Shown here in pieces: positions 19,389 to 45,988 of a DNA stretch of 64,000 nucleotides; positions within the stretch are counted from its first letter, which is position 1, and every line of letters starts with the position of its first letter. The notes below the pieces were generated by a model. That model saw only the letters and a program-made list of their open reading frames with translations, did not search any database and had not been told where the DNA came from. This stretch comes from Cryomorphaceae bacterium (GTDB taxonomy: Bacteria; Bacteroidota; Bacteroidia; Flavobacteriales_D; Cryomorphaceae): contig PXBH01000059.1 in the NCBI GenBank assembly GCA_003565555.1, positions 1 through 64,000 on the forward strand, given 5' to 3'. A program made the position numbers and the translations under genes.

Positions 19389-19389
19389 C

Positions 19390-20262: not shown

Positions 20263-20268
20263 ATTTCT

Positions 20269-21324: not shown

Positions 21325-21577
21325 TTTGAGCGTTTTTGGCTGTAAGGTTTGGCGGAAATCAAGACGTACACAGATTTTCTGCGACACGCAAAAGTCAGCA
21401 TATTGGCTTCCGCGGGCGGAGGTAGCGCAGTTAAAATGTGTTAATGAAATGGTATTGAGAGAAGTATCGGTCCCGGGCAGCCGAGAAATCGGAAGTTATC
21501 GACACCTTACTCAGCACGGTTGAAAACATCCCCGCCGATGGATGCATTGAATCCTTACATTCGCAAAAAACACGCTT

Positions 21578-29103: not shown

Positions 29104-30258
29104 TCAGAGCGAGCGCAGGGAGGTGGTATAATCCCCGCTTCCGTGCGTCAAGTCACGATAAAATTCGGCATACTCCTCAATCGTTCGCTCAGCATGCAAG
29201 ATTTCACTGATCCGCTCGGCAGCCTTCCTCCCCAAATCTGCGCACCAGGTTCTTTTTTCGATGAGTGCTTTGACGGCCTCTGCAAGTGCGGCAGGATTTT
29301 TCGGCGGTACCACCATCCCGGTCTGCCCGTGCTCGACCAGGTATTTATTTCCGGGAATATCCGTGATGATCGGCGCCGTGCCCAGATGCATGGCCTCAAC
29401 CACTGCTTTTGTCAGAGATTCAGCTCCGATGGAGGGCATGACGAAAGCATCTGATGCACGCACCAGTGAAGCCGCATCCTCTTTGAAACCGGTGAAAAAA
29501 ATGCGCGATCCGCGACCTGATTGCTCGGCCGATTTTTTGAACGTTGGCGTGTCCAACCCGCGACCTATCAATAGAAGGGCGATATCCGCAGATTTCGGGA
29601 TCAGCGCCATGGCCTTCAGAAGGTATTTTACGCCCTTCACCCTTCTGGCATTGGCCACGCAGGTGAGCACGAAGGTATCAGGTTCCGTTTTGTATTCTGA
29701 CAGGTCAGCGGCGGGTATATTTGCGTACCATTCCGGGCGGTGACCCTTGTTGACGGTCACAAGTTTTCCACTTGTTTTTTTCAGAGACTGACGCCGAAAT
29801 TCATCCTCAACTGAGCGTGAATTGCATACCACCTTGTCGGTACGCGGGTGGTAATATTTGGTGTACATCCCGATGTCATACCACTTCATATTGGCTTGGG
29901 TGCCGCGGTACATCACGACTTTTACGTTCAGTCCTTTCGCGGCGCGCAATCCGTTCTGATAGGCTTTGCTGTTGAACATGTGCAAGATGTCATATTCCCC
30001 TTCCTTCAGGTGCTTGCGGATAAATGCGGAAGCATTGCGGTCAAATTTTCTTTCGGGATGAAAATCGATGACTTTGATCCCCGCCGCTCGGAAATTCGCT
30101 GTGTACGGCGCGTCGCCGTAAGTCATTACCGTAATTTCAAAGCCCTTCCGCGCCAGACCGATGAAGATTTCGGCTTCGGGTCTTACACTCAGTGTTGACC
30201 TGTAATTGCTGATCACCAAAATTTTAGGTGGTGTCAGGGGGGAGGGGTTACCGTCCAT
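29104..30258 (-). CDS. Family 4 glycosyltransferase
   Basis: 384 residues with a GT-B fold. The N-terminal half has the strand KILVISNYRS and an acceptor region with many basic residues. The C-terminal half holds the GT4 donor site: CVANARRVKGVKYLLKAM, then EX7E as ESLTKAVVE, followed by GTAPIITDIPGN. No signal peptide or membrane helix is evident. The sugar and acceptor cannot be read from sequence. It stands alone, next to but divergent from the polyketide operon; a joint role in glycolipid formation is possible but unproven. Confidence 0.85.
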   Translation of the reverse strand: MDGNPSPLTPPKILVISNYRSTLSVRPEAEIFIGLARKGFEITVMTYGDAPYTANFRAAGIKVIDFHPERKFDRNASAFIRKHLKEGEYDILHMFNSKAYQNGLRAAKGLNVKVVMYRGTQANMKWYDIGMYTKYYHPRTDKVVCNSRSVEDEFRRQSLKKTSGKLVTVNKGHRPEWYANIPAADLSEYKTEPDTFVLTCVANARRVKGVKYLLKAMALIPKSADIALLLIGRGLDTPTFKKSAEQSGRGSRIFFTGFKEDAASLVRASDAFVMPSIGAESLTKAVVEAMHLGTAPIITDIPGNKYLVEHGQTGMVVPPKNPAALAEAVKALIEKRTWCADLGRKAAERISEILHAERTIEEYAEFYRDLTHGSGDYTTSLRSL

Positions 30259-30470: not shown

Positions 30471-31637
30471 ATGACTGCTGAAAACAAGATAAAGTCGGAC
30501 GCTTGGGTGCTTTATCAAGGCCCCGAAGAAGGCGGTGTCGGATCCTTGGTTCGGGAAGAATTTGAATTTTCCGGTATCTCAGATGGTGAGGTACTTACGG
30601 AACCTCTTTACGGATGCTGGGAAGGAAACATGAGCCATTCGATTGAACGAAAACCTATCGACATAGCACGACACAGGGGAGAAGAGAAGGTAGTCATCGG
30701 CAATGCCGGTGTGGTTCGAATCCTGGAAAAAGGGAAATCGGTCACCACCTGTGAGGTGGGAGATGTTTGCATTGTGTTTTGCGTGGGAAAAGTGGACAGA
30801 CGCGGCTACCCCGAAAAAATATTGGGGTACGATGCCCCGGGGACGATGGGCGTACTTTCGAAGAAGAGTAAAATGCCCGGACATTCGGTCATTCCCATCC
30901 CCGCAAACTCGAAGTACAGTTACGAACAGTGGGCCGCCTTTTCTTTAAGGTACGTCACCGCATGGTCCAACTGGAAAGCCGCATTGAGCTGCTGGAAGTC
31001 TCAAATGGACGGTGTAGATCCTTCACAAGAATATGTGCTCGCATGGGGTGGAGGTGTTTCCTACGCGGAGGCTCTTCTGGCTAAAAATGAAGGGTTTAAT
31101 GTGGTTATGGTGGCCTCGAGTGATGCCCGAATAGCAGCCCTTGAAGCCGACGGCATCACAGCCCTGGATCGACGGGAATTTTCGGATTTGAAATTCGACC
31201 CGGTCGCATACCGCAAAGATCCCGATTACAAGGCGCGGTACCTTGCCGCCGAAAAATTGTTTGTCGAAAAGGTCAGGGAATTCTCCCGTGAAAATAATAT
31301 CGCGATTCTGGTCGATTTTGTGGGCCTGCCCGTTTACCGTGCTTCTCTGAAAGTGCTGGCCAGACAAGGGGTCATCACCACTGCGGGGTGGAAAGACGGG
31401 ATGGTCTTGACAAATTTCAGGGCCATTGAGTGCATCAGCAGACATATACACGTTCACACCCATTACGCGCGGTATTCCGAAGGCTTGGAAGCCGTCGATT
31501 ACGCAGAAAAAAACGGCTGGATGCCGGACCTTTCTCGTGATAAAGTGTACGGTTTTGACGAAATTATGCAGGTGCATGAAGACTTCAATACCGGCAAGAT
31601 CGACACTTATTTTCCCATTTTCAGGGTGAACGATTGA
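30471..31637 (+). CDS. MDR-superfamily reductase, crotonyl-CoA reductase/carboxylase-like
   Basis: 388 residues of the medium-chain dehydrogenase/reductase superfamily. The nucleotide-binding loop reads AWGGGVSYAEALLAKNEG (about 190-207). The C-terminal part (HTHYARYSEGLEAVDYAEKN, then W.P.L......FDEI) lines up by eye with the C-terminus of crotonyl-CoA carboxylase/reductases, keeping a histidine at the place of the CO2-binding His but with Tyr and Asp where CCR has Phe and Glu. Zinc ligands of alcohol dehydrogenases are not seen. First gene of the polyketide operon, 143 bases before the synthase, which has no enoylreductase domain. It could make an alkylmalonyl-CoA extender or act as an enoyl reductase in trans. 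A near-consensus box TATTTTCG lies at 30419-30426; the leader is A-rich. Confidence 0.6.
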   Translation: MTAENKIKSDAWVLYQGPEEGGVGSLVREEFEFSGISDGEVLTEPLYGCWEGNMSHSIERKPIDIARHRGEEKVVIGNAGVVRILEKGKSVTTCEVGDVCIVFCVGKVDRRGYPEKILGYDAPGTMGVLSKKSKMPGHSVIPIPANSKYSYEQWAAFSLRYVTAWSNWKAALSCWKSQMDGVDPSQEYVLAWGGGVSYAEALLAKNEGFNVVMVASSDARIAALEADGITALDRREFSDLKFDPVAYRKDPDYKARYLAAEKLFVEKVREFSRENNIAILVDFVGLPVYRASLKVLARQGVITTAGWKDGMVLTNFRAIECISRHIHVHTHYARYSEGLEAVDYAEKNGWMPDLSRDKVYGFDEIMQVHEDFNTGKIDTYFPIFRVND

Positions 31638-31780: not shown

Positions 31781-34700
31781 ATGCCCCTTAAACAAGAGCC
31801 TCAATTCACCACGATAACTGAAGCGCTTTCGACCCACAGTCGAAAGCAGCCTGAGAAAACCGCTTTTCGATTCTTGATTGACGGCGAGGAGGAAGGCCCC
31901 GTGCTTTCCTATGCGCAACTTTACCGCGAAGCCGGGCGCATTGCTTTTACCTTGCTGAAAGATGTAAACCCGGGAGATCGTGTTGTATTGCTCTACCCGC
32001 AGGGCTTGGACTTCGTTTCTGCTTTATTCGGTTGTTTTTTGGCAGGCGTTATCGCTGTACCCGTTTTTCCGCCTGCCGGCCGGCGGCGCACGGAGCGGTT
32101 GGAGAATGTGTTGAAAGACAGCGATCCTGTCGCAATACTCGCTACGGCTCAGATCGAAAAATCTGTGAGTCGCCTGCTCAGCGAAAAGAATATCGAGAAA
32201 AAATATCTCCGGATCATCACTGATCAGCAGCTTGATGAAAGTGTAAACCTGACCGAACTTCCGGCAGCGGCACCGGACCATACCGCACTGCTTCAGTACA
32301 CTTCAGGTTCCACCGGAAATCCGAAAGGCGTTGAAGTAAGCCACGACAATCTCGTGCACAACAACCATGCACTTTACCTCGCGAGCGACGGACAACCCGA
32401 TACGGTATGCTGGCTGCCGGTATACCACGACATGGGGCTTATCGGCAATCTCATTTATGTGGTCTATTGCGGCGGCACTCTCACTTTGATGTCGCCCGCC
32501 GACTTTATTCGCAAGCCTGTACGTTGGTTCCGGGCGCTCACCAAGTACAAAGCGTCGGCTTCGGGATCACCCAATTTCGGATACGATTTGTGTACGCGCC
32601 ACATTTCGGATGAAGACCTTAAGGACATGGACCTCTCCGGTTTGATGGCCTCGGTCAACGGAGCGGAACCGATAAAACCCCGCACGGTCCGCAGATTCAA
32701 AGATAGATTTGCCAAAGCAGGTTTTCGCGAAGATGCTTTCATGCCCTGTTACGGTATGGCCGAGGCTACTGCGCTGATTTCGGGAACACGCGGCGAAGAT
32801 GCAGACCTTATTTTGGACGCGCAGGCGCTGGGCAATAAGAAGGTGGTGCCCGTGCGTGAGCATGAGCCGGGCATGACACGAACCGTTGCATCTTGCGGCA
32901 AGCCTGCAACAGGGATGCGCATTATTGCGGTCGATCCGGACACCGGCGTGGCCTGTCCGCCTGATACCGTGGGTGAATTATGGGTGCAGGGCCGCAGTGT
33001 GGCCAAGGGGTATTGGCGAAGGCAGGAGCTGACCGAAAGTGTTTTTCGCGCCGTGCTTAAAGAGGAAAGCGGCCGCTTACGCGAAGAAGAAGGATTCTTT
33101 TTGCGAACCGGTGATATGGGCTTTCTGCGCGAAGGCTCGGTCTATATTACCGGTCGCTTGAAAGAAATGTTTGTTATCAACGGCGCCAACGTTTTTCCGC
33201 AGGATATCGAACGCAGCATTCAGGAAGACAATCCGGTGCTGCAGGAAAATGCAGGAGCCGTATTTGCGGTGGATTCCGAAGAAGGCCAAGACGACGTGAT
33301 TGTCATGCAAGAAATTGCAAGATCTAAGCTGAAGGATTGTAACCCGAGGGCCGAAATACGTAAAATTGTTGACCGGGTATTGGCCATTCATGAGATATCC
33401 CTTTCGGGCGTCTTTTTGCTTGCGCCCGGAGCTTTGCCCAAAACAACGAGCGGAAAAATCAGACGCCTGAAATGTGCAGAACTGTACATTTCGGGTCAGA
33501 TTCCCGGAATAACAGATCATTTGCTGCTCAATAAACGAGCGATTAAAAATCCATTTGATATGAGTGAAAACAGTCTTAGCGCGGATGCTCCGAAGGTTCC
33601 CGCTTTCGAATTGATTACGGAGGCCTTGGCTTATCATGCCGAGCATAGCCCCGATCAAACGGCTTATCGATTTTTGGAGGACGGAGAGACCGTCAAGGCT
33701 ACGCTCACTTACCGCGAGCTATACGAAGCTTCCCGAAAGCTGGCCGCTAAGATCGCCGAAACTGCGGCCCCGGGTGACCGCGCCATGCTTGTGTTTCCCT
33801 CCGGTCTCGATTTCCCGACGGCGTTTTTTGCCTGTCTCTATGCAGGCGTCATAGCGGTTCCTATGTATTTGCCTTCCGGAAAAAGAAGGTTAGGCAGGTT
33901 CAAAACAGTGTCGCAGGATTGCGCCCCTGTTTTGGCCATCGGCGAGTCCTCCAGCTCAGAAAAGGCCAAAGAGTGGTTTGCGGAAACGGAAGTTTTGAGT
34001 GATCTCAAATGGATTGATGCGGACCGAATGGGGGAGGACACTCAGATTTCGCTGCCGACCCCGGAGCCACAGCATACAGCGTTTCTCCAGTACACCAGCG
34101 GCAGTACCGGGGATCCGAAAGGGGTAGAGGTGTCCCACGCCAATATCGTACACAACAACCGCCTTTCCATGTTGTCAACACGGACTGCGCGAAATTATGT
34201 GAGCTGGCTTCCGATTTACCACGACATGGGCCTCATCGGCAAGATTTTGGCAAATGTCTACGGCGGAGAAACACTCACCTTCATGGCGCCGGTCGATTTC
34301 ATTACCAAGCCTGTGCGTTGGTTACGCGCGCTTTCGGAATACGGAGGGCAGACTTCGGCTGCTCCTAACTTTGCCTTTGACCATTGTGTCAAGTACATTT
34401 CTGATAAGGAGATGGAAGGCGTTGACCTCTCCGGCTGGAAGGCGGCAAGCAACGGTGCGGAGCCGATCAAGGCATCCACGATCAGAAAATTTACGGAGCG
34501 CTTCGGAAAATACGGTTTTCAACCCTCTACCTTCATGCCTTGCTACGGGATGGCTGAGACTACGCTGATCGTGAGCGGAACGGCCGGTGTGATTGAAATT
34601 ATCCGGGCGGATAAAAAATCTCTCCTCGACGGCAAAATTGCAGAGGTATCAGGTTCGGAGGAAGAAGCCTCCGAGCTGGTCGGAAGCGGTCCCGTCCTCG

Positions 34701-37700
34701 GCGGATTCACCGTGGTCATCGTGGACCCGGAAACCAAGCACGCATGCCCGCCCGATTCGATCGGTGAGATCTGGGTGCAAGGCCCGAGCGTGACCAAAGG
34801 CTATTGGCAGCGGCCCCAATTGACAGAAGAGATTTTCAGGGCCCAAATCGAAGGTGAGGAGGAGCGCGGACACTTCCTCCGCACGGGCGACTTGGGTTTT
34901 TTGCGCAAAAACAACCTCTTCGTCACCGGACGGCTCAAAGAATTGATCATTATCAACGGGGCAAATATCTATCCTCAAGATGTGGAGCGTTCTATTCAGG
35001 AGGAAGATCCCGTACTCCAAGAGAATGCGGGCGCTGTGTTCAGCGTGGAGTCCGAATCCGGCATGGATGAGGTGGTGGTTTTCCAAGAAATCTCCCGTCA
35101 GCACGTGCGTGACTTCAATGCAGAGGAAGTCATTGACAATATTATAAAACGCGTTATTGCCAACCACGAAATCCCTGTGCTTGCAGTTTTCCTGATCAGT
35201 CCGGGCAGGCTGCCCAAAACCACGAGCGGCAAAATCCAGCGCATGAAATGCCGGGCGGAATACCTCGCGGGCAATCCTCAGGGTGTTTTGGCATCCAGAG
35301 ACCGCTCCGCACTGAAAAGTGCGAAAGATGAAGGCAAACGCAAAGCTTCCGAAGAAACCCCCGCATCAGATTCGGCCTTGAGAAAAGAGCTGAGCGATCG
35401 GATCGTTAACGAAATCGCAGAGCTTACGGAAGTTCCCGAATCTGCTGTAGATGTGAATACCTCTTTTGCCTCTCTGGGAGTGTCATCCATTCAGGGAATT
35501 CAGCTTGCCGAACGCCTCGGAAGGTTTCTCGGGCGTAGGGTGGAGACCACGGATCTGTACAATTACAGCACCGTCAATGAGCTGGTGAATCATTTAACTG
35601 CTGAAACCGCCGAAACAAAAGCAGAGGAGCCGCGTGCTTCCGCAAACGATTCCGGAGCGACAGTCGGCGATGAGCCCGTAGCGGTGATCGGCATTTCGTG
35701 CCGCTTTCCGGGTGCCGACGATTTATCCGCTTTTGAAAAACTGATCAGCAAGGGAGAGGACGGAATAACCGAGGTGCCCGAAGACCGCTGGAATTGGAGC
35801 GAATACTATGATACCGCCGGAGGCCCCGGTAAAATGGTCACGAAGTGGGGCGGCTTTATCAGCAACCACGACAAGTTTGACCCGCAATTCTTCGAAATTT
35901 CCCCCAGAGAGGCAGTGCTCATGGATCCTCAACAGCGGATACTTCTGGAAGAAACGTACAAACTTTTTGAATCTTCAGGCTATCCTTCCGCACAGCTTCG
36001 CGGAAAGGATGTCGGTGTATTCATCGGCATTGCCGGCAGTGACTATACGGGTAGGGTGCTTCAGCATTCAGATGAGAGAAACATATATACCGCCACGGGA
36101 AGCTCCTACAGCATTGCTGCCAACAGACTTTCCTATTTCTACAACTTTACCGGTCCGAGCGTATCCGTTGATACGGCCTGCTCATCTTCTCTTGTGGCAC
36201 TGGGCCAAGCGGTAAAAGCACTTCGCGACGGTGACTGCCCCATGGCCGTGGCGGGCGGTATTAACCTCATTCTTTCTCCCGAAGGCACCCTCAGCTTTTC
36301 GCAAAGCGGACTCATGGCCGCCGACGGACGGTGCAAAACTTTCGATGCTGCCGCAGACGGTATCGTGCGCAGCGACGGCTGCGGCGTAGTCTTGCTGAAG
36401 CCGCTTTCTGCTGCTTTGAAAGACGGTGATCGAATACACGCCGTAATCCGCGGCGTCGGGGTCAATCAAGACGGAAGAAGCAACGGGCTCACTGCGCCCA
36501 ACGGTCTTTCTCAGGAGGCCTGCATCAGAAAAGCGCTCAAAGATGCAAAACTGAATCCCCGCGAAGTGAACTTTGTGGAAGCCCACGGTACGGGCACCAT
36601 CTTGGGTGATCCGATCGAGGTGAACGCACTGCACGCGGTATACGGGTCGGGCCGAAAAGATCCGCTGTACGTGGGTTCGGTGAAAGCCAATATCGGTCAT
36701 ACCGAGGCGGCTGCGGGAATCGCCGGATTCATCAAGGCTGTGCTCGCGGTGAAAAACAGAGCGCTTCCCGTTCAGGCCAATTACAATGCACCGAATCCCC
36801 AAATCGATTGGGACAACATTGCCGTAAGGGTGCTGCGGGAAGTCAAGAAATTTAACCCCGGAGGTCCGCCGCTGCGGGCCGGTGTAAGCTCCTTCGGATT
36901 CGGAGGAACCAACGCCCATATTATTTTGGAGTCGGCGCCGGAAATCGATGAACAGGCGGAAGAAACGCAAAATGCTGCACGCTCCGTTCAAATTTTGCCC
37001 GTTTCGGCCAAGGACGCGCCCACACTGCGCCGCAAGCTCACTGAACTGGACCGTTTCTTAGAGCGAAACAGCACGGTGACTTTAGATGACCTTGCCTTCA
37101 CCCTTTTTTCCGGAAGGGACCATTTCAACCACAGGACCGCACTGATCGGCAAAAATGCAGAAGACCTCAGAAAGGGAATTGCTGATGCGCGGGAAGGAGA
37201 AGAATCACTTTACTCCTTTTCAGACCTCGCGGTGAAGGGCAAGAAAGTGCATGCTTTTTTCTTTACGGGTGCAGGTCCGCAGTACCCCGGAATGGGGAAG
37301 CACCTCTATGAGACAGAGCCCGTTTTTCGCACACACCTGGATCGATGCGCCGAAATAGCTTCGGAATACATGGAGAAAGACCTTCGCGAGGTCATCTTCT
37401 GCACCCCGGGATCAGAGGAGCATAAACTTCTCGATAGGATCGACTACATGCAGCCCGCAGTATTTGCTTTTGAATATGCCCTTTATAAATGGTGGGAGCA
37501 TCTCGGCGTCACTGCCGATATTGTGATCGGTCACAGCCTCGGTGAACTCGCGGCAGCCTGCATCGCGGGCGTATTTGATCTCGAATCGGCAGTGAAGCTT
37601 ACCGTGAAGCGGGGGGAGCTGATCTACAAGATGCCTGTCCCCGGGACCATGGCCTCCGTGCAGGCGAGCGAGAAAGAGGTGCGCGATGTGATCAAAGACC

Positions 37701-40700
37701 GAAAGGACGTATCTGTGGCCGTGCTGAACAGCAAGACGCAGACCGTGGTTTCCGGCGAGACGGAAGGCGTGGACTTTGTCGTAAAACACTTTGATGCTGC
37801 AGGACGCAAGACCAAGGTGCTCAACATCAGCAGGGCCGGCCACTCTCCGCTGATGGATGCCATATCCGATGAATTCCGCAAAGTAGCGGAAAGCTTTGAG
37901 ATGGCACCCGCACGCATACCGCTGGTCAGCAATGTGACCGGAAAAACAGCGGGTGACGACATTGCAACTGCAGAATATTGGGTGAACCACCTCAGGCAGC
38001 CCGTTCGATTCGCAGACGGTTTGCAGACGGTGAGTGATTTCGGCGCAAATTTGCTGATCGAAGTGGGGCCGAACCCTGTACTTCTCGGCATTTCGCGTCA
38101 GGCGGGACTCCCCGGAGAGGGAACGGTACACATCGCCTCGGCAAGTGAGGATGACAAAGACGGCACTGCACTTTACACCGCATTGGCAAAGTACTACGCC
38201 GCCGGCGGGGATATCAATCCCGAAGCTTTCCTTGCAGGACGGCCGGGAAGCTTTACAGATGCTCCGCTTTATCCCTTTACGGGAAAAAGGTTGATGGTCG
38301 AGGCTTCTGCCCGGACGGAAGCTTCCGGCGAAGCCACGGGAATGCCCCTTCTCGGGCGTGCCGTGAAGGTGGCGGGGCTCTACGGTGTATTTGAATCTGC
38401 CGTGAGTCAGGAAACCGTACCCTATCTGCGTGACCACCGCATTATTGACTCCGTGATTGCACCTGGCTCTTTCCATATTGAACTCCTCCTCGAGTTTGCG
38501 GCTTACGCCAAAAAAGATTTGATGATCCGCGAACTCTCCATTCAGCGGCCGCTTTTTGCGGATGAAACCGCACCGCGAAGAGTTCAGGTCATCGCAGAAG
38601 AGCAGGAGCTGAGCGATGCGCTAAAGGTGAGTGTGTTCAGTACGGATGCCTTAGGTGCAGACTGGACCTTGCACGTAGCGGCTACGATGCAGAAGCGCTC
38701 CGGCGAATTACCCCCGTCTGCAGACCTCGGGAAATTGTCCGATGCGCATACGGAGGCCGTGGATGTCGCGCAATTTTACCGCGATCTCGCGGAAATCGGG
38801 TTTCATTACGGACCGAGTTTTCAGGGCGTGAAAGTACTGAAGCGCGGAGCATCTTCCGTATATGCCGAGTTGGAGATTGCTCCCGAGGGGCAAGATGCAG
38901 CAGAGGCTGCAGGAGCACAACTCCACCCCGCACTGCTCGATGCGGCCTTCCAAATGCTGGCCGGCCTCTCCGCGGGGACTGAGCAGAAAGAGACTTACTT
39001 GCCCTTTGCGGTAGAAAACCTCGAAGTGACCGTGCCTCATCTTACCCGTTGTAAAGGTGTGCTCAAGGTACATGACCGCGAACCGGATTCGGAGATCATG
39101 CGCTGCGATATCACCCTGTACACCGAGGAGGGAGATTTTGCCGGAAGGCTGGACTTCAGTTGCAAAAAAGCCTCACCGGAGCAAATCACGGCGGGAGGCT
39201 CGCGCCTGCGCACCGACTGGATGTATGATGCCCGCTGGTCTGAACCTACCGGAGTCCCGCCCGAAGAAGTGCGGCCCGAAAATATGCTTCTGCTCTGTCA
39301 CGATGATATCGCCGCCGATTACGAAGGCTTTTTGATGGAGATTAAATCGCGCGGAATTCCACATACCGTGGTGAGCGATTGGGGCCAAGCCAACGCCATG
39401 ATGTTCAACACAGACTATGACGCCCTGACCGTACTTTGGGGAAATCCCGAGGGAGAGGGTTCTGTGGCCGAGCAATCTCGGCAATGGGCCCTGGACGGGC
39501 TGAAGATGCTCCAAGACCTGATATCGACAGGAGCGGCAAAAGGGCCGAAATTTCTGAAGAAAATATACTGGGTTACCGAGGGCTTTGCTTCCGGAGCGAC
39601 CGATCTGCGATCGGCACCGCTCTGGGGATTGGGACGCACTTTCGTCAAGGAAACCGATTTTGATCTTAAGCTCATCGATATTGACCGCAAATCCTACAGC
39701 ACTGAGCACTTGGCGGAAACCATCTTTTCCCTCGGTACAGAGAGCCAAGTGCGTCTGACAGGTAAGAAGGCGGAAGTACTGCGACTTGAAAAGCACCGCG
39801 CAACCGAGGCAGGTCAAAAGACCTTTACCTCGCGTGCCACTTGGATCATTACCGGCGGAACGGGAGATCTGGGATTGCAGGCCGCACGTGCCGTGGCGAC
39901 CCGTACGGATGTGGCGCGTATTGAGCTTTGGGCCCGGCGTGAACCTTCTGAAGAAGTGAAGGCTTTCGCGGCCGAAGCTGAAGCGCTCGGCACTTCCGTC
40001 GTAGTGCGCAGTGTGGACGTGGCCGATGCGGATGCGGTAAGCCAAGCTGTGGCCTCCGTGCCCGCTGAATTTCCCGTGAAGGGTGTGCTCCACATCGCCG
40101 GTGTCGCCGAAGATGCCCGTATTCCCGAGCAGAATGAGGATACTTTTGATAAGGTATTGAATCCAAAAATACGCGGCGCGTGGAATTTGCACCGGGCCAC
40201 TGAGGGTGCAGACCTTGAGGCTTTTGTACTTTACAGTTCCCTGTCGGCACTTGCCGGAGTGCCCGGTGTGGCAAATTACGCCGCTGCCAATACCTTCTTG
40301 GATGCCTTGGCACGGTACCGTCGCGAACACGGCTTGGCCGGACATTCCCTGAATTGGGGTGCCTGGGCCACGGCCACAGGACTCCTTGACGCTTCGCGTG
40401 CAGATGACTTCAGGAAATACATGCGTGCACGCGGTGTGGACTTGATCGACGGAGATTCAGGAACAGACATATTGATTTACAGCTTGATGAGCGGATCGCT
40501 GCCATCGCAGGTATTCGTAGCGCCGCTTATTTTGGAAAGTGCTTCTCCTTTTGAGTTGCCTTCCGGCGAAATACAGCCCCTCTACAGAAAACTGTTGGGA
40601 GGAGATGCCACGGATAGTGAAGCGGCGGCTGCAAAGTCTAACCTCCGCGCCGAGCTTTTCAAAGCTGATCCCGAAGAACGCCGCGCACTTTTGGCATCCG

Positions 40701-41197
40701 CTGTCAAGAAGCAGGTGGGCCTTGTGGTACGCCACGAAAATCCGGAAGCTATAGATCCTGACGCAGATATCTTCTCCCTCGGCGTTGACTCCCTGATGGC
40801 GGCCGAAATGGTTTCAAGACTCTCTAAAATGATCAAAGAGCCGTTGGCACCCACCATTCTCTTTGATCAGCGAACAGTGAATGAGCTGACCTCTTTCCTC
40901 TTGGAGGTAACCATAGATTTCTCAGCGGAAGAGCAGGGGCTTACCGAGGATCCCGAAGAGGATGTAAAAGCGGCAGCGCCGCGTGAAGCCGCTGCGGCTC
41001 CGCAAGGGGCATCCGTCCCGAAGGAGGCTCCGACCGACAACGGAGCACTTCAGCGGGAGGATTGGGAGCGCAAGCTCAAAGCCCTGCTTGCGGAAGAGCT
41101 GAAGGCCCTCGGTAAAAACCCTGATGCCCTGGAGGAAAGCCGAATCCTTCGACGAAACATTGCAAAACTCGCGGCATCATTGAAAAAGCGTTTATAA
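31781..41197 (+). CDS. Polyketide synthase with tandem fatty acyl-AMP ligases: FAAL-FAAL-ACP-KS-AT-DH-KR-ACP
   Basis: 3138 residues, one uninterrupted frame. FAAL1 (about 15-580) and FAAL2 (about 605-1165) both hold YTSGSTG.PKG, GRLKE..(I/V)INGAN..PQD and the lysine in PKTTSGKI, so both look able to make acyl-AMP. ACP1 carries Ser1236 (LGVSSIQ). KS (from 1298) has Cys1467, His1602, His1640. AT has GHSLGE (Ser1919) and the specificity box RAGH (2018-2021). DH has His2219 and Asp2387 (LLDAAFQ) with GFHYGPSFQG, though the Gly of HxxxGxxxxP is Asp. KR has GGTGDLG (about 2692), Ser2820, Tyr2833, Asn2837. ACP2 carries Ser3004 (LGVDSLM). The tail of about 90 residues ends in a charged helix that may be a docking element. 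There is no ER, methyltransferase or thioesterase domain; a reductase gene precedes and a thioesterase gene follows. Expected chemistry: load a fatty acid, extend with a malonyl-type unit, reduce and dehydrate. Whether it iterates is unknown. Confidence 0.93.
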   Translation: MPLKQEPQFTTITEALSTHSRKQPEKTAFRFLIDGEEEGPVLSYAQLYREAGRIAFTLLKDVNPGDRVVLLYPQGLDFVSALFGCFLAGVIAVPVFPPAGRRRTERLENVLKDSDPVAILATAQIEKSVSRLLSEKNIEKKYLRIITDQQLDESVNLTELPAAAPDHTALLQYTSGSTGNPKGVEVSHDNLVHNNHALYLASDGQPDTVCWLPVYHDMGLIGNLIYVVYCGGTLTLMSPADFIRKPVRWFRALTKYKASASGSPNFGYDLCTRHISDEDLKDMDLSGLMASVNGAEPIKPRTVRRFKDRFAKAGFREDAFMPCYGMAEATALISGTRGEDADLILDAQALGNKKVVPVREHEPGMTRTVASCGKPATGMRIIAVDPDTGVACPPDTVGELWVQGRSVAKGYWRRQELTESVFRAVLKEESGRLREEEGFFLRTGDMGFLREGSVYITGRLKEMFVINGANVFPQDIERSIQEDNPVLQENAGAVFAVDSEEGQDDVIVMQEIARSKLKDCNPRAEIRKIVDRVLAIHEISLSGVFLLAPGALPKTTSGKIRRLKCAELYISGQIPGITDHLLLNKRAIKNPFDMSENSLSADAPKVPAFELITEALAYHAEHSPDQTAYRFLEDGETVKATLTYRELYEASRKLAAKIAETAAPGDRAMLVFPSGLDFPTAFFACLYAGVIAVPMYLPSGKRRLGRFKTVSQDCAPVLAIGESSSSEKAKEWFAETEVLSDLKWIDADRMGEDTQISLPTPEPQHTAFLQYTSGSTGDPKGVEVSHANIVHNNRLSMLSTRTARNYVSWLPIYHDMGLIGKILANVYGGETLTFMAPVDFITKPVRWLRALSEYGGQTSAAPNFAFDHCVKYISDKEMEGVDLSGWKAASNGAEPIKASTIRKFTERFGKYGFQPSTFMPCYGMAETTLIVSGTAGVIEIIRADKKSLLDGKIAEVSGSEEEASELVGSGPVLGGFTVVIVDPETKHACPPDSIGEIWVQGPSVTKGYWQRPQLTEEIFRAQIEGEEERGHFLRTGDLGFLRKNNLFVTGRLKELIIINGANIYPQDVERSIQEEDPVLQENAGAVFSVESESGMDEVVVFQEISRQHVRDFNAEEVIDNIIKRVIANHEIPVLAVFLISPGRLPKTTSGKIQRMKCRAEYLAGNPQGVLASRDRSALKSAKDEGKRKASEETPASDSALRKELSDRIVNEIAELTEVPESAVDVNTSFASLGVSSIQGIQLAERLGRFLGRRVETTDLYNYSTVNELVNHLTAETAETKAEEPRASANDSGATVGDEPVAVIGISCRFPGADDLSAFEKLISKGEDGITEVPEDRWNWSEYYDTAGGPGKMVTKWGGFISNHDKFDPQFFEISPREAVLMDPQQRILLEETYKLFESSGYPSAQLRGKDVGVFIGIAGSDYTGRVLQHSDERNIYTATGSSYSIAANRLSYFYNFTGPSVSVDTACSSSLVALGQAVKALRDGDCPMAVAGGINLILSPEGTLSFSQSGLMAADGRCKTFDAAADGIVRSDGCGVVLLKPLSAALKDGDRIHAVIRGVGVNQDGRSNGLTAPNGLSQEACIRKALKDAKLNPREVNFVEAHGTGTILGDPIEVNALHAVYGSGRKDPLYVGSVKANIGHTEAAAGIAGFIKAVLAVKNRALPVQANYNAPNPQIDWDNIAVRVLREVKKFNPGGPPLRAGVSSFGFGGTNAHIILESAPEIDEQAEETQNAARSVQILPVSAKDAPTLRRKLTELDRFLERNSTVTLDDLAFTLFSGRDHFNHRTALIGKNAEDLRKGIADAREGEESLYSFSDLAVKGKKVHAFFFTGAGPQYPGMGKHLYETEPVFRTHLDRCAEIASEYMEKDLREVIFCTPGSEEHKLLDRIDYMQPAVFAFEYALYKWWEHLGVTADIVIGHSLGELAAACIAGVFDLESAVKLTVKRGELIYKMPVPGTMASVQASEKEVRDVIKDRKDVSVAVLNSKTQTVVSGETEGVDFVVKHFDAAGRKTKVLNISRAGHSPLMDAISDEFRKVAESFEMAPARIPLVSNVTGKTAGDDIATAEYWVNHLRQPVRFADGLQTVSDFGANLLIEVGPNPVLLGISRQAGLPGEGTVHIASASEDDKDGTALYTALAKYYAAGGDINPEAFLAGRPGSFTDAPLYPFTGKRLMVEASARTEASGEATGMPLLGRAVKVAGLYGVFESAVSQETVPYLRDHRIIDSVIAPGSFHIELLLEFAAYAKKDLMIRELSIQRPLFADETAPRRVQVIAEEQELSDALKVSVFSTDALGADWTLHVAATMQKRSGELPPSADLGKLSDAHTEAVDVAQFYRDLAEIGFHYGPSFQGVKVLKRGASSVYAELEIAPEGQDAAEAAGAQLHPALLDAAFQMLAGLSAGTEQKETYLPFAVENLEVTVPHLTRCKGVLKVHDREPDSEIMRCDITLYTEEGDFAGRLDFSCKKASPEQITAGGSRLRTDWMYDARWSEPTGVPPEEVRPENMLLLCHDDIAADYEGFLMEIKSRGIPHTVVSDWGQANAMMFNTDYDALTVLWGNPEGEGSVAEQSRQWALDGLKMLQDLISTGAAKGPKFLKKIYWVTEGFASGATDLRSAPLWGLGRTFVKETDFDLKLIDIDRKSYSTEHLAETIFSLGTESQVRLTGKKAEVLRLEKHRATEAGQKTFTSRATWIITGGTGDLGLQAARAVATRTDVARIELWARREPSEEVKAFAAEAEALGTSVVVRSVDVADADAVSQAVASVPAEFPVKGVLHIAGVAEDARIPEQNEDTFDKVLNPKIRGAWNLHRATEGADLEAFVLYSSLSALAGVPGVANYAAANTFLDALARYRREHGLAGHSLNWGAWATATGLLDASRADDFRKYMRARGVDLIDGDSGTDILIYSLMSGSLPSQVFVAPLILESASPFELPSGEIQPLYRKLLGGDATDSEAAAAKSNLRAELFKADPEERRALLASAVKKQVGLVVRHENPEAIDPDADIFSLGVDSLMAAEMVSRLSKMIKEPLAPTILFDQRTVNELTSFLLEVTIDFSAEEQGLTEDPEEDVKAAAPREAAAAPQGASVPKEAPTDNGALQREDWERKLKALLAEELKALGKNPDALEESRILRRNIAKLAASLKKRL

Positions 41198-41223: not shown

Positions 41224-41940
41224 ATGGAAAATACTGTAGTTGCTATACCCTTCGCGGGAGGAGATCGGTACGCTTATCGCGCGCTGATTGCCGCCGCCCC
41301 CGCGGATTGGAAGTGGATGGTATTGGACCTGCCCGGGAGGGGACCGCGAGGAAAGGAGCCCCGACTGCGCAATATTGCCCTGATGGCAGACGCGCTCTTC
41401 GCTGATTTTCGTGCGGATGTACCCGTCGGACCTTATATCTTGCTGGGCCACAGCATGGGCGCCATTCTGGCCTTTGAACTCCTGTGGCGCATCAGAGCCG
41501 CCGACTTGCCCATGCCCGCTGCCGCTCATTTTTCGAGCATGGCAGCGCCGAACGTGGTTCGGAACAAAGCGGTATCGCACCTTCCGTCCGATGAATTTTG
41601 GGAAGCCATGAAAACCTACGACGGTGTTCCGACGGGTATTTTGGCCAATGAAGCTTTAAGAAATTACTTCGAGCCGATTCTCAGAGACGATTTCGCGGCA
41701 GCTGAGGTGTACTTCCGTGAGGCCGGAGAAGAGCCGCCTTTTGATCTGCCGTTTTTTATTTCGGCGGGGGAGGAGGAGGATATTCCGGAGGCGAACCTCA
41801 TGAAATGGCAGGATTTTTCCGCAAAGCCCATTTCTGTGGAGCGCCCTCCGGGTCGGCATTTTTTTCTTTTGAAGCAGCCTGAAAATGCGGTGGCCCGGAT
41901 TGCAGGGACTTTCGATTCGAACTGTAAATCGCAGCGGTGA
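41224..41940 (+). CDS. Type II thioesterase
   Basis: 238 residues of the alpha/beta-hydrolase GrsT/TEII family. The first strand and oxyanion region read AIPFAGGDRYAYRAL, the nucleophile is Ser77 in GHSMG, and the catalytic histidine is His212 in GRHFFLL; the acid is probably in the SAGEEED loop. Such enzymes clear stalled acyl groups from carrier proteins, or release the product when the synthase has no thioesterase of its own, as here. It begins 26 bases after the synthase, and its TGA overlaps the GTG of the next gene (GTGA). Confidence 0.87.
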   Translation: MENTVVAIPFAGGDRYAYRALIAAAPADWKWMVLDLPGRGPRGKEPRLRNIALMADALFADFRADVPVGPYILLGHSMGAILAFELLWRIRAADLPMPAAAHFSSMAAPNVVRNKAVSHLPSDEFWEAMKTYDGVPTGILANEALRNYFEPILRDDFAAAEVYFREAGEEPPFDLPFFISAGEEEDIPEANLMKWQDFSAKPISVERPPGRHFFLLKQPENAVARIAGTFDSNCKSQR

Positions 41941-42593
41941 TTGCCCTTCTTTATACGAATTTGGTCGGGAAATTTGACAGTTGCGATCCCGACGTTATAC
42001 GCGGCTTGTTGCCTCCCGAGTTGGGCCGGTTAGCCGAGAAATACCGCCGCCCCGACGATCAAATACGTAGCTTGGCCTCTAAGTACCTCCTGTTAAAGGC
42101 TCTTGAACTTTTCGGCATATCCGGTCCCTACCGCTACATTGCAGAAACCGCAAGATCAAAACCCATTTTGGAGGGGGTGACCGATTTCTCATTTAATATT
42201 ACGCACAGTGCGAATATTGTGATTTGTGCCGCATCTGACGGTGCGGAGTTGGGGGTCGATGCGGAGCAGGTACGCCCCGCTCCTGATATTGTTCATCGCG
42301 GGGTGTTTACACAAAATGAGCTGGAACTATTGCAGCGTGATGCAAACGATCCGCAGGCCTACCTGCGGCTGTGGACACGCAAAGAGGCACTCTCGAAAGC
42401 CGACGGCAGGGGTATGCGCCTTCAATTTCGAGAAACCGATGCGACGGAAAATTCAGTCGAGGTCGGGGACATGCGCTACGCAATAGTTGATATACATGGG
42501 CTGCCTGACGGATACGTCGGTGCGCTCGCATATGCGCAGGGTGAAGCTGCGGTCGACATTGAGCTTCGGGAAGTGCCGATTCCCTCAATTTAG
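41937..42593 (+). CDS. Sfp-type 4'-phosphopantetheinyl transferase
   Basis: 218 residues. It attaches the phosphopantetheine arm of CoA to carrier-protein serines; the two ACPs of the neighbouring synthase are the evident targets. The family motifs are in order: FNITHSANIV, LGVDAEQV (metal-binding Asp/Glu), and WTRKEALSKADGRGM. The start is GTG overlapping the thioesterase stop. The last 9 bases overlap the end of the convergent SGNH gene. A dedicated transferase within the operon means the pathway does not depend on a transferase elsewhere. Confidence 0.92.
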   Translation: MIALLYTNLVGKFDSCDPDVIRGLLPPELGRLAEKYRRPDDQIRSLASKYLLLKALELFGISGPYRYIAETARSKPILEGVTDFSFNITHSANIVICAASDGAELGVDAEQVRPAPDIVHRGVFTQNELELLQRDANDPQAYLRLWTRKEALSKADGRGMRLQFRETDATENSVEVGDMRYAIVDIHGLPDGYVGALAYAQGEAAVDIELREVPIPSI

Positions 42594-43679
42594 GGTTCTG
42601 CTTCCGTCTTGGCGAATGCCGGTCAGTGCTTCAAAATCCTTCGCAAAAGCGGAAGAGAAAATGCGGGCACCCTTGGCACTGAAGTGCGTCGGATCCTTGT
42701 AGTAATCGAGTTCCGTGGGAAAATCCGAATAGTCGAGGTAGTACGCATTTTCATGTGCATCGGCGAGGTCGGTAGCAAACCTTACGAATTCGTCAAAATT
42801 CGGGAGACTTTCCTTCAGCAGCGGATTGGTCGGGACGGTGACCAGTATAAACTTTCGTTGCTTTGAGCCCCGCAGGTAGCCTTCAAACTCTTCGAGATAG
42901 GCGGTGTCCACAGAGAAGTATACCATGGCGTTGATGGAGTTCAGGGCGTATTCATCTTCCGGGCTGAACACCTTGTTCGGATCGTCGAATTTATCCTGAA
43001 GCTCTATACGACGGCTGTTGAGGTTAGCCAAGCGTTGCACAAAGATTTCTACATCTTTTTCGGACTGGCTTTTTTCTTCCAGCATTACGCCTCGATTGTC
43101 GCGCTTGTCGCCCCGGAGTCTTCGCAGGGGGCCTACGGCATAATTGAAATAATTGCCGTAATACCTCATCCCCGGCACCGTGTAATGGGCATTGAATACC
43201 CCGCTTTCGCGCATGAAGTTTTCAATAACCTCATGGTGCAGCAAGGGGATGAAGGTCGATGAGTTGATCGTTGTTTCGGGATTTCTGATGAAGGTGCGCG
43301 GATTGATTTCAAAGATGATCGGAGCATCTTTGTCTTTTTCGCATTCTACCTTCATCAGCACCCGGGTTACATCGAAGAGGGCCTTGCCCATTCCGTAATT
43401 GAAACAATCCGGGCTGATGGAATCGGGCGTAAATGAGCTTCGGGCCACCGAGGCTCCGAATACGGGGATTTCGTTCGGATTGGGATCATCGAGCAGGCGC
43501 TTGACTTTGCTCTGATTCGACCAGGAATTCGCAAAAATGATGTACCGGTCGAAGATATAATCCGCTCCGAGGAGAAAAATTACGAGCACCGCGGCAAGCG
43601 GCCAAAGTTTCTTGACCAGCAGCTTCGGAGTAACTTCGTCGTTCTCAGAATTGGAAATATATAAATTGCTGATTCGCAT
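42585..43679 (-). CDS. Membrane-anchored SGNH hydrolase-like protein (MBOAT partner)
   Basis: 364 residues: a cytosolic N-terminus, one transmembrane helix (about 27-46), and an extracytoplasmic SGNH-like domain. The block I position reads VFGASVARSSF (GAS where classic members have GDS) and the C-terminal DPTHFSAKG provides the Asp-x-x-His pair. This is the plan of proteins paired with MBOAT acyltransferases in acetylation of alginate, peptidoglycan or teichoic acid (AlgJ/AlgX, PatB, DltD). It starts 35 bases inside the MBOAT gene on the same strand. The acceptor is unknown. Confidence 0.78.
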   Translation of the reverse strand: MRISNLYISNSENDEVTPKLLVKKLWPLAAVLVIFLLGADYIFDRYIIFANSWSNQSKVKRLLDDPNPNEIPVFGASVARSSFTPDSISPDCFNYGMGKALFDVTRVLMKVECEKDKDAPIIFEINPRTFIRNPETTINSSTFIPLLHHEVIENFMRESGVFNAHYTVPGMRYYGNYFNYAVGPLRRLRGDKRDNRGVMLEEKSQSEKDVEIFVQRLANLNSRRIELQDKFDDPNKVFSPEDEYALNSINAMVYFSVDTAYLEEFEGYLRGSKQRKFILVTVPTNPLLKESLPNFDEFVRFATDLADAHENAYYLDYSDFPTELDYYKDPTHFSAKGARIFSSAFAKDFEALTGIRQDGSRTLN

Positions 43680-45051
43680 CTTCTCCGAGCATTAGGATTA
43701 AGAAAAGCATGACGGCCAGATAGACCAAGTTGTTTTTGAATTTCAATTCACGGTTAAACCATGTGGTAGGGATGAGGATCAGGCAGAGCAAGACAAGAAT
43801 ATAGAAATTTGAGCCCCCGCCGAATCCCGCAGTTACGTCACTTGGATTCCAAGACCAATCCGTAAAAATCTTTCCGTAGCCGGTAAAGACGTCATCCAAA
43901 GATTGGGCGCGAAAAAACAAGGTGCTGAGACAAATCAATACCATATTCCACAAGGGAACAAGGGCATTTCTGTATATCTTATTCTGTATGCGCGGAATAG
44001 ATCGCATGATCTCAATATGCCCCTGAATCCCCATGATCACACCGTGATAGACGCCGAAAAGGATGAAGGTCCAATTGGGGCCGTGCCAAAACCCGATCGT
44101 TGCGAGCACCAGTACATTAATCCAAAACCGTTTTTGATTGCTCGGATTATTGCCGAGAAGGGGGTACTGCATATAGATGAAAATCCACTGGGTCAAGGAC
44201 ATGTGCCACCGGCTCCAGAAATCCCTGAAACTTTTCACCCAGTAAGGCCGGTTGAAATTTTCTATCAGGTTAATGCCGAGCAGGCGTGCCGAGCCGATCG
44301 CGATATCGGTGTATCCGCTGAAGTCGCAGAAGATCTGCACGCCGAAGAAAATGAGGGCTACAAAGACCTGCATGCCGTTTGAAACGGAAAGATCGATGAA
44401 GACATAATCGACGAAAACGCCCACATTGTCCGCAATGACGAGCTTTTTAAAAAAGCCCAGTACTATCTTGTTCAGGCCGTAACGGACATCTTGGAGCTTG
44501 AGGTTGGCTCCCTTTTTCAACTGGGGTATCAGGTGTGAACTACGTTCAATCGGACCGGCGATCAGCTGAGGGAAAAAAGATACGTAAAGGGCGAAGTAAC
44601 CGAAGTTGCGCTCGGGCTTGATGCTGCCGTTGTACAGGTCTATGGAGTAGCTCAGCGTCTGGAAGGTGTAAAATGAAATACCGAGCGGGAGCAGTACATA
44701 GTGCGTCACGGGCGGAAAGGGTGCGCCTAAGAGCGTGGCAGCCTCGTGTATATTGAGGCTGAAGAAGTTGAAGTATTTGAAATAGAAAAGAATCCCGAGA
44801 TTTGAGCAACAGCTCAAGATCAGGTAGGGGAGCCGTTCCCTTTTGGTTTTGAACTTGCTCATTTGGAGTCCGGCCCAGAAATCGATCGTGGTGCTTCCCA
44901 AGAGCAGTAAAGCGTACACAGGCTTCCACGACATGTAGAAGTAGTAGCTTCCCGCCAAAAGCAATAACCACCTCCAATTCCTGTTGAGTGCAAAATAGAG
45001 CACCAACACAACAGGAAAAAATATGATGAATTCCAGCGAATTAAATAGCAT
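43645..45051 (-). CDS. MBOAT family O-acyltransferase
   Basis: 468 residues with about 11 transmembrane helices, from FNSLEFIIFFPVVLVLYFAL onwards. The catalytic histidine is in GFWHGPNWTF, and conserved FFPQLIAGPIERSS and NFNRPYWVKSFRDFWSRWH are the AlgI/PatA/DltB hallmarks. It moves an acyl group across the inner membrane for attachment to an extracytoplasmic acceptor by the downstream SGNH partner. It has its own promoter (45224-45254) and a leader of about 165 bases. Its closeness to the polyketide operon is suggestive only. Confidence 0.9.
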   Translation of the reverse strand: MLFNSLEFIIFFPVVLVLYFALNRNWRWLLLLAGSYYFYMSWKPVYALLLLGSTTIDFWAGLQMSKFKTKRERLPYLILSCCSNLGILFYFKYFNFFSLNIHEAATLLGAPFPPVTHYVLLPLGISFYTFQTLSYSIDLYNGSIKPERNFGYFALYVSFFPQLIAGPIERSSHLIPQLKKGANLKLQDVRYGLNKIVLGFFKKLVIADNVGVFVDYVFIDLSVSNGMQVFVALIFFGVQIFCDFSGYTDIAIGSARLLGINLIENFNRPYWVKSFRDFWSRWHMSLTQWIFIYMQYPLLGNNPSNQKRFWINVLVLATIGFWHGPNWTFILFGVYHGVIMGIQGHIEIMRSIPRIQNKIYRNALVPLWNMVLICLSTLFFRAQSLDDVFTGYGKIFTDWSWNPSDVTAGFGGGSNFYILVLLCLILIPTTWFNRELKFKNNLVYLAVMLFLILMLGEDANQQFIYFQF

Positions 45052-45223
45052 AGGTATGCTTTAGTTTAAAGGGGCTGTGCGCCTCGGGACGGCGGCACGT
45101 TTCACGCATACGGCTTACAGCATGCTTTGGATACATCACCCGGCATTTTCTCATGCGGCAAGTTTTGTGTGCTGTTTTGAAAATTTTGAAGGCAAATCGA
45201 ATTAACCTATGTTAAGAAAACCG

Positions 45224-45254
45224 CAAATCTAATTAAAAACCTATGCGGCATCAA
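45224..45254 (-). promoter_or_regulatory. Promoter of the MBOAT-SGNH operon
   Basis: Minus-strand TTG (45254-45252), exactly 20 bases, then TAGATTTG (45231-45224): a full match to TTG-N(17-23)-TAnnTTTG. So the acyltransferase pair has its own transcript, separate from the polyketide operon. Confidence 0.7.
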
Positions 45255-45484: not shown

Positions 45485-45988
45485 ATGACCATGGAAACCT
45501 TTTCACCTGAAATAAAACCCGGTGCCGGATTTGGAAAAATACTCTTCGGCATGGGCCGAGAACAAGTCAAAAAAATACTCGGTGAGCCCAATGAAATTGA
45601 GCGAAATGTACACGATGACAATGAGGAAGACGTTACTGAATCATGGCATTACGACGACATTGAAGTTTCGCTGAGTTTCGAAAAGACAGAAGACTGGAAA
45701 CTCTGCACCATTGCGGTTAGTGATCCGGAAGCCACCATCAACGGCAAAAAAGTTGTCGGAATGAGCACCGAGGAAGTCAAGGCCCTGCTCAAATCACTCG
45801 ACGTGAAAAATCCGACCCTCGAAGATTGGTCCACCGCTGAGGACCCCGACTATTTTTCCCTGACGGCAGAGGAGTTGGAAATGGTCTTTTGGATCGAAGG
45901 AGACGAAGTTATGGATATCCAGTGGGGGCCCTATTTCATCGATGAAGATACCATTCGCTGGCCGATCAACGGATTAAAGGTCGTTTGA
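45485..45988 (+). CDS. Small acidic cytosolic protein, function unknown
   Basis: 167 residues, no signal peptide or helix in the membrane. I do not recognise the family with confidence. It begins with GAGFGKILFGMGREQVKKILGEP, a segment that recalls BamE/SmpA-type or immunity-protein-like small domains in which the protein binds a partner, and has a second similar half (VVGMSTEEVKALLKSL), so it may contain two copies of a short beta-alpha-alpha unit. Strongly acidic (many Asp/Glu). An ATG six bases downstream (METFSPEIK) is an alternative start. It precedes ettA by 66 bases. Confidence 0.65.
   Translation: MTMETFSPEIKPGAGFGKILFGMGREQVKKILGEPNEIERNVHDDNEEDVTESWHYDDIEVSLSFEKTEDWKLCTIAVSDPEATINGKKVVGMSTEEVKALLKSLDVKNPTLEDWSTAEDPDYFSLTAEELEMVFWIEGDEVMDIQWGPYFIDEDTIRWPINGLKVV

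Follow-up and report, generated by a model that had tools for sequence, protein, structure and literature searches.

Gene content of the locus

The window analyzed here, the whole 64,000-nucleotide stretch of contig PXBH01000059.1 from a Cryomorphaceae bacterium (GCA_003565555.1), encodes a membrane-bound O-acyltransferase (MBOAT) and an SGNH-type partner. The genes of this pair run into an operon for a polyketide synthase (PKS) that begins with two fatty acyl-AMP ligase (FAAL) domains and an acyl carrier protein (ACP) domain. The pair and the genes it faces are listed below.

43645..45051, − strand: MBOAT acyltransferase of the PatA/AlgI type, 468 aa (PF03062, E 6.7e-21)
42585..43679, − strand: SGNH-type partner, 364 aa, assigned from alignment and AlphaFold model
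45224..45254, − strand: promoter-like site TTG-N20-TAGATTTG of the Bacteroidota type, upstream of the MBOAT gene
41937..42593, + strand: 4′-phosphopantetheinyl transferase (PPTase; PF01648, E 3e-13), found at all three loci of the genus
31781..41197, + strand: polyketide synthase, 3138 aa, assigned from Pfam and motifs; FAAL-FAAL-ACP-KS-AT-DH-KR-ACP (KS, ketosynthase; AT, acyltransferase; DH, dehydratase; KR, ketoreductase)

The SGNH and MBOAT genes overlap by 35 bases on the − strand, and the 3′ end of the SGNH gene lies 9 bases inside the convergent PPTase gene on the + strand (42585–42593), as the original prediction had it. The PPTase gene is the last of a + strand row that also holds the synthase and a stand-alone thioesterase. 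The promoter-like site that the prediction had also assigned to the MBOAT gene is real: TTG-N20-TAGATTTG at 45254–45224 (− strand) is the sole exact match within the 64-kb window. A relaxed consensus has 8 matches over the whole window on both strands, and by Markov resampling 0.025 matches are expected on the − strand of the 433-base intergenic stretch.

The Pfam order of the synthase is AMP-binding (twice), ACP, KS, AT, DH, KR and ACP, so that an ACP is encoded next door to the MBOAT. Both AMP-binding domains have intact core motifs. The first matches a non-ribosomal peptide synthetase/PKS model at 479 bits and then fatty-acid--AMP ligase models at no more than 443 bits, all below their cut-offs. 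By profile, the adenylating domains are predicted to be of the FAAL type acting with an ACP, and not D-alanine-specific ligases like DltA.

Identity of the MBOAT and SGNH proteins

The MBOAT belongs to its family by profile (75.4 bits with PF03062, cut-off 27), and its sole NCBIfam match is DltB at 138 bits, far under the cut-off of 375. We aligned it with the two other MBOATs of the genus and 85 others (88 rows; L125, which has no open reading frame of 380 aa, was left out). His283 and His323 are present in all 88 sequences. The protein carries a C-terminal acyl-shuttle hexapeptide, FIYFQF, whose tyrosine is Y465, and F-x-Y-F-x-F forms the C-terminal end of 86 of the 88. In the AlphaFold model (pLDDT 87), helices 414–435 and 440–455 are two extra transmembrane helices (pLDDT of the last blocks 52–84), and a shuttle motif with an invariant tyrosine on such helices is the mark of the PatA/AlgI type. 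The best solved match is DltB (6bug, E 2.3e-12); no AlgI structure is among the fold matches, so the fold does not separate DltB from AlgI. This gene is the only MBOAT match in the assembly (3.72 Mb, 237 contigs, 96.7% complete). The promoter type, DUF4199 and Por_Secre_tail proteins and the relatives of the MBOAT in the tree all point to Bacteroidota.

Neither Pfam nor NCBIfam gives a match for the SGNH protein. It has an N-terminal membrane helix (helix 19–64 of the model) and a catalytic set made up of Ser77 in block I (GAS) and Asp329-x-x-His332 in block V. Ser77 and His332 are invariant in an alignment of nine sequences; position 329 is Asp or Asn, with Asn in both sister proteins within the genus and in a number of further relatives. 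The best solved matches of its AlphaFold model (pLDDT 78.5) are DltD structures (3bma and 6pfx, E 1e-5 to 4e-5), and the fold also matches SGNH esterases. The assignment of the two proteins as an MBOAT-SGNH acyl exporter is thus backed by the shuttle motif and by DltB and DltD as the nearest solved folds.

Conservation within the genus

We compared the locus across the genus, sampled by three genomes (the window genome G000, G041 and G036) within a family of eight. The SGNH protein has a match in 13 of 299 genomes of the order, including both other members of the genus. Four further genes of the region enter the comparison.

41224..41940, + strand: stand-alone thioesterase (PF00975, E 2e-30)
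30471..31637, + strand: zinc-type dehydrogenase, possibly a trans-acting enoyl reductase (PF00107 below cut-off)
29104..30258, − strand: GT4 glycosyltransferase, present in G041 and not found at the G036 locus
45485..45988, + strand: small BamE-like protein divergent from the MBOAT (weak PF04355, E 0.0015, below cut-off)

In both sister genomes the SGNH-MBOAT pair converges on a PPTase gene that is located after an ACP-bearing gene, and the enzyme encoded there differs each time. The G041 enzyme is FAAL-FAAL-ACP alone (1354 aa). In G036 a FAAL-ACP-KS piece runs off one contig and the last ACP lies at the end of a second; from order and homology we infer that the two pieces are one gene. The thioesterase and dehydrogenase were not found at the G041 and G036 loci. 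The G041 locus has neither KS nor thioesterase beside FAAL-FAAL-ACP and PPTase, and the rest of its assembly (81% complete) has no KS-AT module, the single match being FabF-like in length and score. Some other enzyme must therefore unload the ACP in G041.

Because synthase architecture differs from genome to genome and the accessory genes vary, the stable core of the locus consists of FAAL, ACP, PPTase, SGNH and MBOAT. The predicted conservation of the pair beside the PKS therefore holds in part: the pair adjoins the PPTase and the ACP-bearing gene in all three genomes (the FAAL half lying on another contig in G036), but the KS-AT-DH-KR module is not the conserved part. Identity across the genus is 71–80% for the MBOAT, 59–71% for the SGNH protein, 30–35% for the PPTase and 44–60% for the FAAL. 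Convergent abutment is kept, and the overlap, proposed as a means by which one transcript might dampen the other, varies in length (9 bases in the window genome, 0 in G041, 37 in G036). The promoter-like site is kept in one of the two sisters: G041 has TTG-N20-TAGATTTG, with the same −7 box and spacing, 204 bases before the MBOAT gene, and upstream of the G036 MBOAT we found only TATATTTG, with no TTG at the right distance. A chance neighborhood of the pair and the FAAL operon is unlikely.

Two glycosyltransferase genes upstream, a GT2 at 26949 and the GT4 at 29104, had been proposed as suppliers of the acceptor. The GT2 lies beside mnmA without a PKS in four of five sister-genus genomes (it was not seen in G015), and the GT4 is missing at the G036 locus. 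Neither is therefore a dependable supplier, and we dropped both as general candidates. The BamE-like gene neighbors the MBOAT only within the genus (at L016 and L017) and is absent from the sister-genus stretches.

Exopolysaccharide operons outside the genus

The gene order on either side of the block can be followed into the sister genus. In its five genomes, GT2 adjoins mnmA in four, together with DUF4199 and SDR genes in three, one being cut by a contig end; ABC-F, HisS and HutH occur together in three of the five. In G015 only mnmA and ABC-F were recognized, 41 kb apart, and G046 has no ABC-F match. The block of the genus sits between two synteny blocks that are non-neighboring in the four sister-genus genomes in which both could be located (G003, G015, G023 and G030), and nothing of the GT4-to-BamE-like block lies beside either flank in these four.

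Matches to the SGNH protein outside the genus number 16 (10 among the 299 genomes of the order at E 1e-3, 6 among 395 genomes of the class at E 1e-15). Eight of these show the full order Wza-Wzc-GT4-MBOAT-SGNH of an exopolysaccharide operon (G005, G018, G023, G030, G520, G503, G597 and G478). Four are weak or partial (G007, G105, G034, G020); G025 is cut at a contig start, yet has the WecG-sulfotransferase-Wzy side; G002 has the pair and no exopolysaccharide query match within its 20 kb; and G602 and G550 have no MBOAT within the stretch fetched. By profile, no AMP-binding, ACP or PPTase gene is present at the eight full loci, G025 or G002. One operon, in G030, has an MBOAT-SGNH-MBOAT triple in which a single SGNH gene is flanked by two MBOATs (L021:8643-12502).

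The window pair does not lie inside a Wza-Wzc-GT4 operon. The orthologous exopolysaccharide cluster, with Wza-Wzc-GT4 facing WecG and a sulfotransferase, is found elsewhere in the window genome (L177, G000:C124) and in G036 (L180, G036:C82). At both loci the MBOAT-SGNH pair is missing from the place between GT4 and WecG where the sister genus has it, and in L177 the GT4 and WecG matches are 38 bases apart. The single MBOAT of the window genome is therefore that of the FAAL locus. A Wza match is present in G041 as well. The GT4 of the window and that of the exopolysaccharide operon are 26% alike over 145 residues, so the GT4 is not shown to have moved along with the pair.

A finding that the pair occurs mostly without the PKS had been named as evidence against a link between the two. 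Formally this is the case in the order and class samples, given the eight exopolysaccharide genomes. It does not decide the matter for the genus, because the pairs of the genus group apart in a single, strongly diverged clade and G000 and G036 have no such pair in their exopolysaccharide clusters.

Phylogeny and a remodeled donor helix

In the tree of the 88 MBOATs, the three members of the genus cluster together (100/100) on a stem of 0.62, in a larger group with the exopolysaccharide-locus MBOATs of the order (100/99). In a tree of the concatenated pair the stem of the genus is 1.36. The data do not reject a clade that unites the genus with the exopolysaccharide pairs of its own family (p-AU 0.177), and descent from the family's own pair is neither shown nor rejected.

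The genus MBOATs differ from the others in a helix on the donor side of the protein, where the window MBOAT reads F-I-Y and most others [RK]-D-Y. Position 292 is I in all three genus MBOATs and D in 83 of the 85 others aligned; position 291 is F in the genus and R or K in 73 of the 85. The MBOATs of the exopolysaccharide operons retain the Asp. Of the 127 columns that at least 80% of the other MBOATs conserve, nine have genus-specific changes that five exopolysaccharide MBOATs of the order do not share, and four of the nine fall in helix 284–299, which holds 12 of the 127 columns (p = 0.005). With the register taken from the alignment, the homologous helix of DltB carries residues that contact DltC at the mouth of the donor tunnel (PMC11035591). 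Since DltB itself keeps R-D, the change of D292 to I points to remodeling of the donor side and not to carrier use as such.

Ligase and carrier genes at other MBOAT loci of Bacteroidota

We also screened MBOAT loci from GTDB contigs (at least 80; a sample, with none of the window genus among the matches listed). With proteins of the window and of the exopolysaccharide operon as tblastn queries, no ACP, KS or PPTase was detected around the 80 listed MBOATs. A more sensitive profile screen revealed a DltA-like ligase with a small carrier at three of the 80 (L109, L095 and L127) and no PPTase at any. In addition, a carrier gene and an FkbH protein occur together at L107, a carrier-like gene at L121 and a distant AMP-binding gene at L088.

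The Aquimarina algicola locus (L109:1246-5370) encodes a ligase, a carrier, an MBOAT and an SGNH-like protein, the last identified from its GDS motif and position only. The Saprospiraceae locus (L095:1498-6287) encodes a ligase, one further protein, a carrier, an MBOAT and an SGNH-like protein with a profile match. Both MBOATs have the shuttle motif, and each locus adjoins a second MBOAT-SGNH pair that has no carrier directly next to it. In Allomuricauda abyssi (L127:10001-14181), an MBOAT gene and the gene that follows it, which has a GDS motif and no profile match, are convergent with genes for a carrier and a DltA-like ligase, which is the geometry of the window. In this small sample, other parts of the phylum thus also have shuttle-motif MBOATs of the PatA/AlgI type next to genes for a ligase and a carrier.

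The donor helices of the three carrier-linked MBOATs read M-M-D-Y, M-M-N-Y and F-R-H-Y, and those of the second MBOATs of L109 and L095 read F-R-D-Y. Of 114 MBOATs that have no charge module directly beside them (these second MBOATs included), 101 carry [RK]-D. The motif is present in neither of the two carrier-linked lineages outside the genus (L109 and L095, 52% alike and counted as one, and L127), a contrast with a nominal p of 0.016 drawn post hoc from related rows; p is 0.043 once DltB (R-D) is counted. As a marker of carrier feeding the Arg/Asp motif is no more than a hint.

Used as a query, the carrier-linked Aquimarina MBOAT has a match in 70 of 395 genomes phylum-wide; among the 30 loci listed, 29 MBOATs have [RK]-D and one R-H, and one locus (L198) has a carrier gene in its flank. 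The Aquimarina DltA-like ligase has a match in three of the 395 genomes (E 1e-110), with no MBOAT in the stretches fetched around these three.

A possible carrier-fed acyl exporter

We give about an even chance to the reading that the locus encodes a carrier-protein-fed MBOAT-SGNH acyl exporter with a Dlt-like division of labor. To judge from their family, the FAAL domain or domains would adenylate a fatty acid and load it on the ACP, which the neighboring PPTase would activate. In the window genome the KS-AT-DH-KR module would extend the chain; G041 has no such module. On the cytoplasmic side the ACP would hand the chain to the MBOAT, whose tunnel would lead it to the shuttle tyrosine Y465. 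Ser77 of the membrane-anchored SGNH protein would accept it there, and that protein would esterify an extracytoplasmic hydroxyl. Homology to PatAB and Dlt argues for these transfer steps from MBOAT to Y465, S77 and hydroxyl. Acyl-ACP as the candidate donor is backed by genomic linkage, by the G041 locus having no other gene to unload the ACP, and by the remodeled donor side. Further points in favor are the lone MBOAT of the assembly, the absence of the pair from the exopolysaccharide clusters of G000 and G036, and the DltA-like ligase and carrier genes ahead of an MBOAT in two other Bacteroidota. Leading candidates for the acceptor are a glycolipid and the exopolysaccharide of the operon in which relatives carry the pair. 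The latter, with a cluster that in the window genome has no such pair, is an obvious choice, and the polymer would then be lipidated.

The proposed system works like Dlt yet is not Dlt (DltA, DltC, DltB, DltD, DltX). Both have an adenylating enzyme, a carrier, an MBOAT and an SGNH protein, and DltB and DltD are the nearest solved structures. In the window, however, the adenylating enzyme is of the FAAL type and not DltA, the ACP is fused into a megaenzyme, and the shuttle motif is on the MBOAT and not on DltX. The host is Gram-negative, and teichoic acid is not expected. The peptidoglycan O-acetyltransferase PatA/PatB shares with the window pair an MBOAT with a C-terminal shuttle hexapeptide, a membrane-anchored SGNH protein and the kind of catalytic residues; the hexapeptide tyrosine of PatA is auto-acetylated and passes the acetyl group to the SGNH partner. 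PatAB differs in using acetyl-CoA and no carrier, whereas the window pair has a FAAL-ACP neighbor and a donor helix without Asp (PMC12148441, also for the preceding points on PatA). The Bacteroidota Wza-Wzc-GT4-MBOAT-SGNH operon belongs to the same MBOAT-SGNH lineage in our trees and differs in having no FAAL, ACP or PPTase by profile (10 loci, 8 of them of this order) and in keeping the donor-helix Asp. FAAL-initiated PKSs share the FAAL-ACP-KS starter logic, and the window enzyme differs from them in its tandem FAAL (PMC11837247).

Several points weigh against the carrier-fed exporter. The pair is on the opposite strand with its own promoter-like site, and being neighbors does not make the two halves one operon. 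Conservation is lower for PPTase and FAAL than for MBOAT and SGNH, which gives no hint of tight co-evolution. Carrier-fed DltB keeps R-D, so the motif change does not mark carrier use, and the Arg at 291 is lost already in two exopolysaccharide-locus relatives. The thioesterase of the window genome could release the chain without the MBOAT, and a housekeeping ACP (C174) or CoA could be the donor instead. The genus is represented by three genomes, in one of which the FAAL linkage crosses a contig gap.

An unlikely but substantial alternative is that the pair is a relocated exopolysaccharide acetyltransferase, still acetylating the same polymer in trans from acetyl-CoA, with no functional meaning to its place beside the FAAL. 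This would fit the eight outside genomes with the exopolysaccharide gene order, the persistence of the cluster without the pair in G000 and G036, the clade with the family's own pairs that was not rejected, and acetyl-CoA as the donor of PatA (PMC12148441). Against it, the arrangement lasted in all three genomes across SGNH identities as low as 59–71%, the stem of the genus is long in both trees, and the donor-helix Asp has given way to a hydrophobic residue only in the genus. Less probable still is a role in product tailoring, in which the FAAL/PKS yields a free lipid or glycolipid and the pair acetylates its headgroup outside the cytoplasmic membrane. The thioesterase and GT4 at the window locus would suit this, as would the acetylating activity of PatAB (same source), but the pair is present in all three genomes, the thioesterase was not found at the G041 and G036 loci, nor the GT4 at that of G036, and none of the block's identified genes encodes an exporter. 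A separate arrival of the pair and the FAAL operon in this region, with no relation between them, is very improbable: separate strands and promoters and the different rates of divergence of the two halves would agree with it, but the pair is single-copy and its place is conserved in three of three genomes despite a different FAAL architecture in each.

Implications for MBOAT donors and polyketide release

MBOAT-SGNH pathways other than Dlt are described as working without a carrier protein (2025 PatAB paper, PMC12148441). If a Gram-negative pair did take its acyl group from a fatty-acyl or polyketide carrier, this would break the rule that only Dlt uses a carrier. Polyketide synthases would likewise gain a release route onto extracytoplasmic acceptors, and MBOAT donor choice could be tested with natural relatives of the exopolysaccharide and FAAL-linked types. 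A pair that sits among sugar-coat genes in relatives, and beside acyl-loading genes in this genus, may now attach lipid chains at the envelope.

It is possible, somewhat short of an even chance, that the locus is a lipid counterpart of Dlt in Bacteroidota, in which a FAAL/PKS loads a long or polyketide chain on its own ACP, the MBOAT unloads it across the membrane as the chain-release enzyme of the PKS, and the SGNH protein lipidates a surface polymer. If so, carrier-fed MBOAT-SGNH systems arose more than once in the phylum, with DltA-like ligases in Aquimarina, Saprospiraceae and possibly Allomuricauda.

We found no open-access paper combining MBOAT with "fatty acyl-AMP ligase", nor one that brings together FAAL, exopolysaccharide, O-acyltransferase and acyl carrier protein. 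To judge from titles and the openings of abstracts, there was nothing relevant on MBOATs in polyketide release or on Dlt genes in Bacteroidetes, nor on MBOAT-SGNH with a carrier protein beyond the PatAB paper (PMC12148441). As subscription journals are mostly outside such a search, these negatives are weak evidence of novelty.

Other features of the locus and genome

The tandem FAAL domains stand ahead of a single ACP in the window (31781-35638) and in G041 (L016:4722-8786). In the second G041 domain one A5 motif is unmatched by the pattern and the other core motifs are intact. Two FAAL-like domains are also found in eukaryotic DIP2, and the words "tandem" and "MBOAT" are absent from the bacterial FAAL review that reports this (PMC11837247). 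The zinc-type dehydrogenase at 30471..31637 scores 57.6 of 378 bits with a crotonyl-CoA reductase model.

The window genome encodes a further AMP-binding and ACP protein of 618 aa (L048, G000:C161:711-4253), with genes for a hexapeptide transferase and an HMGL-like protein after it, a gene set that perhaps serves sugar N-acylation. Positions 12891-21387 of the window hold a Bat-type operon with a MoxR-type ATPase, DUF58, VWA and BatD proteins, and TPR proteins.

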